From positions 62,001-126,000 of the forward strand of contig NZ_PSWS01000048.1 in assembly GCF_002932875.1 (NCBI RefSeq): DNA of 64,000 bases, read 5' to 3'. The notes under the pieces are model-generated. The model was not told the DNA's origin and made no database searches. It saw only the letters and a list, made by a program, of their open reading frames with translations. Source of the stretch: Rathayibacter tritici. GTDB taxonomy: Bacteria > Actinomycetota > Actinomycetes > Actinomycetales > Microbacteriaceae. Of this stretch, positions 1,036-44,095 are shown piece by piece. The number at the start of each line of letters is the position of its first letter. Positions within the stretch are counted from its first letter, which is position 1. Position numbers and translations under genes: made by a program.

Positions 1036-1096
1036 CGCGAGATGCCACTTACGAGGCCTTTCCTCGGCGTGTCTTCGTCATAGGTGGCATCTCGCG
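1036..1096. repeat. Palindromic element A, copy 1
   Basis: A 61-nt element with 16-nt terminal arms: CGCGAGATGCCACTTA on the left and TAGGTGGCATCTCGCG on the right, which pair with one mismatch. It lies 39 nt before the DUF559 gene. A second 61-nt copy lies just after that gene in reverse orientation; the reverse complement of this copy matches it at about 51 of 61 positions by hand count. Confidence 0.85.
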
Positions 1097-1134
1097 GCGG
1101 GGGCTGTGGAGAACTCGAGCGGGGAGGATGGCGG

Positions 1135-2028
1135 ATGGGGGACCCTGCGGGCATGAGTGAGCAGCAGCATTCCGGAGTGGTCAACGCGTCGACGAGTGGC
1201 GCGTCGCGGCACGGCCTCGTCCGGGACTATCCGGTCGCCGTCTTCCGTGGTGCACGTGCGGTCGTGGAGCCGCTGGACTTCGACGAGCGGATCACTGCAT
1301 TCGCGGCTGTCATGCGGCCGGGGGAGTTCTTTTCGCACGGCACGGCGGCGCACCTGCTGGGTCTGCCGGATCGGAGGAAGACAGCGACGACTGCGCTCGA
1401 CGTCGCGGTCGCCCCGCCGATGCGCGCCGCGCGTCGCGTGGGCGTCCGCTCGCACCACCTCTGGGACGAGGCGGTCACGGTCGTCCATGCCACCTACCCG
1501 ACGGCCGATCCGGCGTCGACGTTCTGCCACCTCGCCGCGTCCAGGACTCTCGACGAACTCGTCGTCCTCGGCGACGCCCTCGTTCTGCCCGACGAGGAGG
1601 GGACCCGTCGGGGGCTCCGCGTCGACCTCACGATCCTGGCCGAGCGCGCCCGGTGCTTCCGCGGGCGGGGCGGTCGCCTGGCCCGCGAGGCGGTGGGCTG
1701 GGTCAGGTCAGGGGCGGAATCCCCGCGCGAGACACTGCTGCGACTACTGCTTCTGCGAGCCGGACTTCCGGAACCGGAGCTGAACGTGGAGCTGTTCGAT
1801 GCTGACGGGCTCTTCGTCGCCCGAGTGGACATGCTCTACCGACGTGAGCGCGTCGTCGTCGAGTACGACGGTGATCAGCACCGTACGGACCGGGCGCAAT
1901 ACGAGCGGGATATTGCCCGGATCGAAGCGATCGAAGCGCTCGGCTACCGAGTCGTCCGGGTCCGCGCTTCCGGTCTCCTCGCGCCCGACGCGACCGTCGC
2001 CCGCGTCCGCCGCGCCCTCGCCGTGTGA
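1135..2028 (+). CDS. DUF559 (Vsr-like nuclease fold) protein with AbiEi-like N-terminus
   Basis: About 297 residues. The N-terminal ~110 residues resemble the AbiEi-type antitoxin/DNA-binding region common in actinobacterial DUF559 proteins (segment FFSHGTAAHLLGLP). The last ~110 residues are a DUF559 domain of the Vsr/PD-(D/E)xK endonuclease superfamily, with VARVDMLY, VVVEYDGDQHR, an ERD segment and LGYRVVRVRA. The Asp, Glu and His positions expected for a metal-dependent nuclease are present. The start is the ATG with GGGGAGG 7 nt upstream; an in-frame ATG at 1153 is an alternative. The gene stands alone between two inverted copies of palindromic element A, so gene plus repeats form a unit of about 1.06 kb. 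Its biological role is unknown; nuclease activity is inferred from the fold only. Confidence 0.75.
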   Translation: MGDPAGMSEQQHSGVVNASTSGASRHGLVRDYPVAVFRGARAVVEPLDFDERITAFAAVMRPGEFFSHGTAAHLLGLPDRRKTATTALDVAVAPPMRAARRVGVRSHHLWDEAVTVVHATYPTADPASTFCHLAASRTLDELVVLGDALVLPDEEGTRRGLRVDLTILAERARCFRGRGGRLAREAVGWVRSGAESPRETLLRLLLLRAGLPEPELNVELFDADGLFVARVDMLYRRERVVVEYDGDQHRTDRAQYERDIARIEAIEALGYRVVRVRASGLLAPDATVARVRRALAV

Positions 2029-2035
2029 CCGACCC

Positions 2036-2096
2036 CGCGAGATGCCTCTTATGACGACGACACGCCGAGCGGATGCCGCACAAGTGGCATCTCGCG
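2036..2096. repeat. Palindromic element A, copy 2
   Basis: A 61-nt element beginning CGCGAGATGCCTCTTA and ending AAGTGGCATCTCGCG, so its ends are near-perfect inverted repeats. Read in reverse complement it aligns without gaps to the copy on the other side of the DUF559 gene. It begins 7 nt after that gene's stop codon and lies 21 nt from the end of the convergent SorC-type regulator. Confidence 0.85.
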
Positions 2097-16405: not shown

Positions 16406-16480
16406 CTCGGCTCGCACGAACGCGTCCGGCTCGTCAGGCTCCCGTCGTCCGGCGAGCCGACGAGATTCTCGCGAGCCGAG
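16406..16480. repeat. Palindromic element B, copy 1
   Basis: A 75-nt element with perfect outer arms CTCGGCTCGC/GCGAGCCGAG and a second inner matching CGGCTCG/CGAGCCG pair. It begins about 40 nt upstream of the yihY start and ends 17 nt past the stop of the second DUF559 gene. It aligns to the reverse complement of copy 2 on the other side of that gene. Confidence 0.85.
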
Positions 16481-16497
16481 GGGGAGGAGTGGCGTGC

Positions 16498-17307
16498 TCA
16501 CCGTGGTCGTCCTCGCTCGAGGACTGCGCGGATGCTCGCGAGGGTCGCGGGCCAGTGGTGCATCACGTCGGAGTAGGTCAGGCGGATCGTCGTGTAGCCC
16601 AGGGCCGCGGCGGCTCGATCCCGGTGCCGGTCCCGCTCGAACGACGTCGCGTCGTCGTGCCACTGCCTGCCGTCGACTTCGATGATGGCCCAGTCGTCGA
16701 TCACGAGATCGACCCGGCCGACGCCGGGGATCTCGACCTGCGACTCGCACTCGATCCCGGCGAGCGTGAGACCCACCCGCGTGACGGACTCCGGCCCTGA
16801 TCCGGCGCGTGGATCGGTGAGTCGAGCCACACACGAGAGACGGCGGGGGAGTCGGCTGAGGACGTCTGCGAGAGCGGTCGGGCTGATCAGACGCAGGCGA
16901 AGGCAGGAGTCGATAACGGCTACGGCGAGCTCGATGCGCTGGCAGGTGAGGACGTGGCCCACCGCCTCCTCCCGAGTCGTTCGGATCGAGCGGTAGGGTG
17001 CCTCGCTGATCCGGTGACTCCAGTGGGTGACCACGTCTTCCGGCTGAGTCGCCGCTCGTGGGCGGGAACTCGATGTGATCGCGAGATGGAGCCGTGGATC
17101 CGGTGGTCGAAAAGCTCCGGCCTCGGCGAGGAGCGTGATGCAGGTCAGCGACCCGCAGGCGATCGCCGCGCGCAGCTCCTGGTCGGATGCGTTCGCGCCG
17201 GCGTACCAGCCTCGGCGGATCCGCCGGAGCGCCCCCGACCGAACGGCCGCCGGGGCGTCGACCCCGACAGCTCTGAGATACCCGATGTGGTGCACGCCGT
17301 ACTGCAT
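16498..17307 (-). CDS. DUF559 (Vsr-like nuclease fold) protein with AbiEi-like N-terminal HTH, second copy
   Basis: 269 residues. The N-terminus (YLRAVGVDAPAAVRSGALRR, IRRGWYAG) is the AbiEi-type winged-helix region seen in many actinobacterial DUF559 proteins. The C-terminal DUF559 domain has VGRVDLVIDDWAIIEVDGRQ, WHDD, an ERDRHRDR segment and LGYTTIRLTY, keeping the Asp, Glu and His positions of the PD-(D/E)xK/Vsr fold. It resembles the first DUF559 protein only in this domain, so the two are diverged paralogues, not a recent duplication. The ATG at 17307 is preferred over an upstream frame extension. The gene lies alone between inverted copies of palindromic element B. Function unknown. 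Confidence 0.75.
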   Translation of the reverse strand: MQYGVHHIGYLRAVGVDAPAAVRSGALRRIRRGWYAGANASDQELRAAIACGSLTCITLLAEAGAFRPPDPRLHLAITSSSRPRAATQPEDVVTHWSHRISEAPYRSIRTTREEAVGHVLTCQRIELAVAVIDSCLRLRLISPTALADVLSRLPRRLSCVARLTDPRAGSGPESVTRVGLTLAGIECESQVEIPGVGRVDLVIDDWAIIEVDGRQWHDDATSFERDRHRDRAAAALGYTTIRLTYSDVMHHWPATLASIRAVLERGRPR

Positions 17308-17408
17308 GCATCGAGCTTTGCCCGTCGGCCGCCGAGGCACCTGCCGCTCGCCGCTATCCGTGGAGAGCCCGCCCGTTCCGCCGCCTGTGGAGGGACTCCC
17401 GCCCGCTC

Positions 17409-17484
17409 CTCGGCTCGCAGAAACGCGTTCGGCTCGCCGGATCCGAGGATTCCGACGAGCCGAACGCGTTCTCGCGAGCCCGAG
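17409..17484. repeat. Palindromic element B, copy 2
   Basis: A 76-nt element, the most perfect copy: left CTCGGCTCGCAGAAACGCGT then TCGGCTCG pairs over about 28 nt with the right side CGAGCCGAACGCGTTCTCGC then GAGCCCGAG, with one single-base gap and two or three mismatches. It fills the space between the second DUF559 gene and the sdhB stop (8 nt), so it may also act as the sdh operon terminator. Confidence 0.85.
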
Positions 17485-24927: not shown

Positions 24928-24937
24928 TCGCCTGATC

Positions 24938-24984
24938 GACGAGGCCGGCGGGCCCGAGCATCTCTCGGGCCCGCCGGCCTCGTC
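24938..24984 (+). terminator. Perfect 21-bp hairpin between BMP lipoprotein and ABC ATPase genes
   Basis: A 21-nt arm (24938-24958, GACGAGGCC...CCCGAG) pairs without mismatch with 24964-24984 around the 5-nt loop CATCT. This is among the strongest stems in the window. It probably ends most transcripts after the lipoprotein gene or protects its 3' end. Confidence 0.85.
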
Positions 24985-25061
24985 GTTGCTCCGGCGCGCG
25001 AATCGATTCCGTGGCGACCGTCCGTCCCCGTCGAGCGCGCATCGTGGCGCGACCCGAAAGT

Positions 25062-44014: not shown

Positions 44015-44023
44015 TCAAACCCC

Positions 44024-44058
44024 GAGTGAGGGTAACAACCCGAATATTACCCTCACTC
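44024..44058. promoter_or_regulatory. Perfect 12-bp inverted repeat, candidate response-regulator operator
   Basis: GAGTGAGGGTAA and TTACCCTCACTC are perfect arms separated by 11 nt. The half-site TTACCCT occurs a third time at 44080-44086, overlapping a TACCCT -10 candidate. The centre lies about 52 nt before the expected transcript start, a usual distance for NarL/LuxR-type activators. Confidence 0.55.
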
Positions 44059-44095
44059 GCCCCCAACACACCCGCCTGCTTACCCTGGTCGGCGA

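Follow-up and report, generated by a model that had tools for sequence, protein, structure and literature searches.

Genes A and B and their flanking palindromes

The stretch of Rathayibacter tritici DNA analysed here (64,000 nucleotides, the window) contains two genes for DUF559 proteins, designated gene A and gene B, each of which lies between a pair of palindromes (Table 1). As the preliminary description of this DNA had proposed, gene A is bracketed by two near-palindromes of 61 nt, which match their own reverse complements at 40 of 61 positions, and gene B has the same layout with an unrelated palindrome family, families A and B differing in sequence. Compared with one another, the A elements agree at 51 of 61 positions when inverted and at 42 of 61 in direct order. 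They lie within the longest inverted pair listed for the window at a distance of up to 2.5 kb (77 nt, 81%), and the second-longest listed pair within this distance (73 nt, 74%) brackets gene B. Folding as single-stranded DNA resulted in z values of -7.1 and -4.8 for the A elements and of -2.6 and -6.8 for the B elements. The family A consensus starts with GCGAGATGCC and ends with GGCATCTCGC, and between its arms lie an asymmetric motif of nine bases, GACACGCCG, and about six bases of variable sequence. A known RNA family was ruled out for the palindromes, since an RNA family search of the window returned nothing at gathering score; the downstream A element gave one sub-threshold match (20.4 bits, with 69 needed).

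Table 1. Positions of the two DUF559 genes and their palindromes in the window
Feature	Position	Strand	Remarks
Family A palindrome, upstream of gene A	1036..1096	-	Asymmetric loop motif GACACGCCG on the minus strand
Gene A, 291-aa protein with C-terminal DUF559 / predicted Vsr-fold nuclease domain	1153..2028	+	
Family A palindrome, downstream of gene A	2036..2096	+	Loop orientation opposite to the upstream copy
Family B palindrome, 3' side of gene B	16409..16481	.	
Gene B, 280-aa DUF559 protein	16498..17340	-	GTG start at 17340 or ATG at 17311
Family B palindrome, 5' side of gene B, adjoining the 3' end of sdhB	17408..17480	.	

The centre of the 5' palindrome of gene B resembles that of a hairpin found at the same place in genome G004, which is without gene B there. 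At the corresponding site in G005 (contig C9, region L143-L146), a diverged DUF559 gene is accompanied by different palindrome arms (GTGCACG) with a similar centre, and in G003 (G003:C1, about 1123740-1126440, L137) gene B has tandem arrays of several CGGCTCGTG palindromes on both sides. The closest genome, G012, is about 94% identical to the window over the first 7.5 kb, and synteny with it is broken inside gene B (window 16600-16620); a shortened family A palindrome lies at the junction (G012:C1:643130-643183, L132), so that the element marks a rearrangement breakpoint. Two further hairpins were observed in the window, a perfect one with arms of at least 14 bp, probably a terminator (24937-24985), and one with GAGTGAGGGTAA arms and a GC content low for the genome, possibly regulatory (44023-44059).

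Predicted fold of the proteins and search for a transposase

In a Pfam scan, the products of genes A and B matched PF04480 (DUF559) with 31.5 and 23.0 bits, respectively, against a curated cut-off of 20.6, and the only other family matched was PF18741. The C-terminal catalytic domain models as a Vsr/I-Bth0305I-like fold, and its catalytic-type residues are invariant in all 15 sequences compared. The N-terminal half of the gene A protein has no confident fold, residues 1-117 being modelled with a pLDDT below 50; in the model of gene B, we read the first 50 residues as having the helix-strand order of a winged helix, and one relative showed a sub-threshold match to the AbiEi N-terminal domain (E 0.063). 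An NCBIfam search gave no useful match, and no relative of gene A with a solved structure was found by sequence. The Y1/HUH transposase family PF01797 was sought in the 15 genomes of the Rathayibacter group and one other, some of them drafts, and was found in none of these 16, with the control found in 5 of 14. This makes a RAYT unlikely as the agent, and the idea of a hidden RAYT acting in trans was dropped on the same ground. The predicted fold thus agrees with the earlier suggestion of a Vsr-like enzyme in the place of a Y1 transposase.

Palindromes flank most DUF559 relatives of the family on both sides

A search of ten genomes found 3-8 relatives of gene A per genome, and hairpin scans revealed palindromes flanking many of them on both sides, the sequences of which vary between loci. 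Among 199 Microbacteriaceae genomes, relatives of gene A with an E value of 1e-15 or lower were found in 131. The two-sided association was measured by a flank test, in which the 350 nt on either side of a gene were aligned locally with each other and the best score was compared with a threshold set at the 99th percentile of 1500 random intervals. Similar flanks were found at 40 of 55 DUF559 loci (57 were tried, L160 and L176 being dropped for their short flanks) and then at 16 of 25 further loci, that is at 56 of 80, whereas none of 276 control genes exceeded the threshold and one equalled it. As controls we took ordinary genes bordered by an intergenic gap at either end, leaving out 16 genes near DUF559. 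These counts substantiate the REP/RAYT-style tie of a nuclease-like protein to its own palindromes that had been suspected from the window. At 47 of the 56 passing loci, both copies of the stretch shared by the flanks are palindromic, at 7 only one copy is, and at 2 neither is; L102 and L263 pass the threshold with a shared stretch that is not palindromic. The test was failed by 24 of the 80 loci, some of which are fragments. One DUF559 relative, at G014:C1:3833138-3833991, is split into two frames and has no similar two-sided flanks; L281 and L282, both in the 25-locus set, cover this one broken gene.

Different DUF559 genes have different palindromes. Genome G142, for example, has five full-length DUF559 genes with five palindromes, two of them related (L264, L270). 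The relative order of the two palindromes of a locus is not conserved: among the 56 passing loci it is direct in 26 and inverted in 30, a call that is only as clear as the asymmetric centre of these near-palindromes, and alignment shows the A pair in direct order at L002/L083, L003/L081 and G015/L260. The inverted arrangement previously described therefore holds in the window and was ruled out as a defining feature of the system. When PF04480 loci were sampled across the class, the flank link was present at 6 of 28 (2 of 30 were dropped because they had no clear frame, and one of the six positives is gene A of G002). Since the link is this weak class-wide, the association belongs to a subgroup, and it was ruled out as a property of the DUF559 domain in general.

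Palindromes change in concert with each other and with the protein

The palindromes are homogenised at the locus. At three sites compared between genomes, the two palindromes of one locus are more alike than orthologous copies are at 22 of 23 loci (10/10, 7/7 and 5/6, site by site), and orthologous and cross-position similarities are nearly equal (35.1/34.7, 29.0/28.5 and 24.1/23.5). A similar pattern was seen in dispersed copies of family A, the inner arms of which are 0.83 alike within genomes and 0.66 between them, a difference reached in 0 of 500 shuffles (every listed 59-nt copy in seven genomes was used, 86 in total); a chosen set of 73 copies from eight genomes, which omitted some odd copies, gave 0.78 and 0.65, respectively. 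A change on one arm of a family A element tends to be paired by one on the other. The most uniform copies of all (0.91) are those of G010, a genome without gene A.

Palindrome and protein also diverge together. In comparisons of 40 loci, pairs with a protein identity of at least 0.70 have palindromes in common in 18 of 24 cases, and pairs below 0.50 in 0 of 727. Gene A changes faster than its surroundings, being 69-76% identical across five Rathayibacter loci where both neighbours are 96-98% identical; one gene A neighbour shows the same 96-98% identity across eight Rathayibacter loci.

For family D, 52 of 62 listed solitary copies from six genomes have the arm core of the palindrome at the D gene of the same genome (G001 17/17, G007 18/18, G005 2/2, G013 14/18, G014 1/2 and G015 0/5). 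This count covers the genomes in which a D-gene flank was read and copies were listed; G003, G004 and G008 are outside the list, and G010, G011 and G012 (3, 2 and 1 copies) were left out, no full D gene having been seen there. The expected match between flanking and dispersed elements did not hold in every genome, as the gene A palindromes of G003 (89 matches) and G004 (91 matches) rank the copies of their own genome only third and fourth of five, respectively.

Number and position of the dispersed copies

The family A pattern was found 3-91 times per genome in all 15 genomes of the Rathayibacter group, and the reversed-pattern control gave no match; the counts require exact outer arms and include the gene A flanks, as well as a small number of matches that differ in length or interior. 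Among the 199 family genomes, only four have it, all of them Rathayibacter; the single hairpin found in a fifth is unrelated in its interior. The comparison of genomes with and without the gene, which the preliminary description had set as a test, gave a divided answer: family A is absent in 194 of 195 family genomes outside Rathayibacter, but all 15 genomes inside the group have copies, including six without gene A (G001 12, G005 22, G008 7, G010 23, G011 8 and G014 3 matches). More than 50 matches were reached in six genomes, all of which have gene A (6/9 carriers versus 0/6 non-carriers, Fisher p 0.028); a rank test of copy number against gene A gave a one-sided p of 0.033 and a two-sided p of 0.066, which is weak and comes from related genomes.

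Other families are also dispersed. With gene flanks counted, family C has 1-5 matches in eight of the 15 genus genomes and none in seven, family D has 1-27 matches in 12 of the 15, and the palindrome family of one G142 gene has 3 matches, all in G142 and one of them solitary. G014, which has no family C match, has a C-type gene with palindromes of different arms. Solitary copies were thus seen for families A, C and D and for one G142 family, which are the families searched. Copy number and D gene are associated for family D (p 0.013), with the gene status inferred for G003, G004 and G006, and we do not rely on this test. A further dispersed hairpin, GCGATACCGCCGGTATCGC, was observed in the flank of L179 and at many other places, with matches in all eight genomes compared.

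Family A copies closely follow stop codons, and most are found where two genes converge. Of 39 loci inspected, 35 were typed (four that were 'inside' or 'unknown' were dropped, and a cruder gene caller typed some differently), with the result that 21 are convergent, 13 tandem and 1 divergent, compared with 25, 79 and 24 of 128 control gaps. The convergent excess is marked (Fisher p 9e-6), some of the loci being orthologues or duplicates.

Occupied and empty sites

Gene A lies between two open genes, and it occupies the same site in all ten known carriers (nine genomes, among them G012, G013 and G015, and the window). In ten relatives compared at this site, the gene and two palindromes are present in six, and the gene is absent in L001, L005, L008 and L010, where the empty site is intergenic; one decayed palindrome is left in L001. 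G011 and G014 are without a close relative of gene A. A mobile gene A was therefore ruled out, and the earlier suggestion of a mobile or formerly mobile unit is not borne out: gene A is sedentary, and only the small palindromes are dispersed.

At orthologous sites of dispersed copies, the element may be present, missing or represented by a different hairpin. At the L194 site, it is present in G011 and G008, and G014 and G002 have 21 and 10 bases instead; at the L195 site, five genomes have the element (one copy decayed) and G007 has an unrelated hairpin; and at the L180 site, the element of G006 corresponds to an ordinary hairpin in G005. Where glpD and its neighbour converge, family A is found in L009, another palindrome in the sister locus L010 and an ordinary hairpin in the other relatives. 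Some copies, in contrast, are common to different species: among the copies compared, 6 of 8 in G011 have a counterpart in G006. No target-site duplication was seen at the orthologues of seven sites, where the flanks are too diverged to exclude one. Two other observations concern the edges of the element. Family A copies at L178, L193 and L122 have the same right flank, and their left flanks diverge from the element start; L114 and L119 differ by 760 bp beginning at the element edge.

Interpretation and alternative explanations

Our preferred explanation, to which we give slightly better than even odds, is that one subgroup of the DUF559 proteins of Microbacteriaceae consists of Vsr-fold nucleases, encoded mostly between their own 50-70-nt palindromes, and that each homogenises or spreads its cognate palindromes, probably by cutting and repair copying. 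The nuclease is the factor that was found to be tied to the palindromes. It would bind its palindrome either as a dimer at the dyad or by recognising an extruded cruciform or single-strand hairpin, and would cut or nick this palindrome or a hairpin that occupies a similar position, whereupon repair may copy the sequence from another member of the palindrome family. In repeated cycles, copies would be homogenised, other hairpins between convergent genes would be replaced by the element, and protein and palindrome would change together, and the nuclease gene itself need not move. Binding, cutting and repair copying of this kind would explain the homogenisation, the joint divergence and the replacement of gene-end hairpins.

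Several points stand against this explanation. Nuclease cutting and copying are predicted steps; six genomes without gene A keep 3-23 family A matches, those of G010 being the most uniform; the gene A palindromes of G003 and G004 fit the dispersed copies poorly, and the D copies of G015 do not match the D gene. The weak rank test of copy number, the 24 of 80 loci that fail the flank test, the low class-wide count (6 of 28) and the lack of a target-site duplication at the sites read also count against it. Homogenisation could arise from ordinary recombination, and the flanks of orthologous loci are shared by descent.

The alternative that survives best, in our judgement unlikely, treats the palindromes as sites that serve the host, either as transcription terminators or in genome organisation, and whose similarity is maintained by ordinary recombination, with the DUF559 gene as a passenger that lies between two of them by chance. 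Their position close behind stop codons and mostly between convergent genes is what such sites would show, as are the unrelated hairpins at some orthologous sites and the persistence of copies without gene A, most uniform in G010. This alternative does not account for similar two-sided flanks that occur at none of 276 other genes, or for palindromes that differ between DUF559 genes and change with the protein.

It is rather less likely that the protein is a DNA-binding regulator of its own gene and, via the dispersed copies, of others, the nuclease domain being secondary. The dyad symmetry, the palindrome that precedes the gene, the winged-helix-like order in the gene B model and the sub-threshold AbiEi match of one relative (E 0.063) are consistent with it. 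The dispersed copies, however, lie at 3' ends, with 1 of 35 in the divergent gaps that hold promoters compared with 24 of 128 in the control, and the catalytic-type residues are invariant in 15 sequences.

We regard as improbable a role in defence or genome policing, in which the nuclease would cut DNA without, or with, its palindrome and the host copies would be protected or tolerated. The predicted Vsr/PD-(D/E)XK-type fold is common to restriction enzymes, and several fast-evolving relatives occur per genome; but the scanned neighbours of genes A and B are M78-like, SorC-like and BrkB-like, with no methyltransferase or known defence partner among them, and the flanking palindromes would be left unexplained. 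A classical transposon, moving as a unit of gene and terminal inverted repeats, is highly improbable, for although the gene is bounded by repeats and has empty sites in relatives, gene A is at one site in 10/10 known carriers, the order is direct at 26 and inverted at 30 of 56 loci, and the dispersed elements are solitary single hairpins with no duplicated target seen at the sites read.

Comparison with known systems

Small dispersed non-coding repeats with dyad symmetry are known as MITEs and from IS elements. The palindromes described here are likewise small, dispersed and dyad-symmetric, and they differ in that gene A stays at one site and no target duplication was seen.

REP palindromes have the RAYT as their known partner. 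According to the abstract of the paper that described them, RAYTs have flanking inverted REPs, co-evolve with them, are encoded by fast-evolving rayt genes and correlate with REP abundance (PMC2817692); this 2010 paper found RAYTs meeting its criteria only in gammaproteobacteria (PMC2817692). Judged from the cited parts of two papers, the REP/RAYT system (REPtron) and the present one share a gene with a palindrome on each side, further palindromes scattered at gene ends, joint divergence of gene and palindromes, a gene that changes faster than its neighbours and several cognate pairs per genome (PMC2817692, PMC3733652). Abundance follows gene presence in part, yet family A non-carriers keep 3-23 matches. 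The nuclease, in contrast, comes from another superfamily (Vsr-like by its predicted fold, with PF01797 in 0/16 genomes), the 50-70-nt hairpins have no GTAG or CGTC tag and no fixed inverted order, and the system is found in Actinomycetota. By analogy, then, the DUF559-palindrome system would work like a REPtron without being one.

EDxHD homing endonucleases such as I-Bth0305I, as presented in the cited part of PMC3943268, resemble the DUF559 proteins in the predicted C-terminal fold. Unlike in these enzymes, the gene lies outside any intron or intein, and only the short repeat is dispersed, the nuclease gene not being seen to spread. The Vsr mismatch endonuclease and Caulobacter VsrA belong to the same domain family and share its predicted fold, as far as the cited sections of PMC12907096 describe them. 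The DUF559 proteins described here differ from them by a long N-terminal region and by the absence of a methyltransferase among the scanned neighbours, and palindromes go unmentioned for VsrA-type proteins in those sections (PMC12907096).

Significance for DUF559 proteins and repeat evolution

A literature search restricted to open-licence PMC papers found no earlier report, and the DUF559-palindrome system looks like an unrecorded counterpart of REP repeat systems, built on a different enzyme. A wider proposal, which we hold tentatively and at somewhat less than even odds, is that many DUF559/Vsr-fold nucleases, several per genome, may form an independently evolved REP-like class, in which each would drive its own 50-70-nt palindrome by homing-like cut-and-copy without a transposase. 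Such nucleases would rewrite terminator hairpins between convergent genes, and nuclease and palindrome would change together, giving each gene a private recognition code.

If true, a second, chemically unrelated enzyme class would have its own palindromes, and the REP way of life would have arisen more than once. The system also makes bacterial concerted evolution testable at the 60-bp scale and, on the same condition, would provide many natural nuclease-palindrome pairs for reading a recognition code and would give a role to many of the DUF559 proteins found in a single large family of bacteria.
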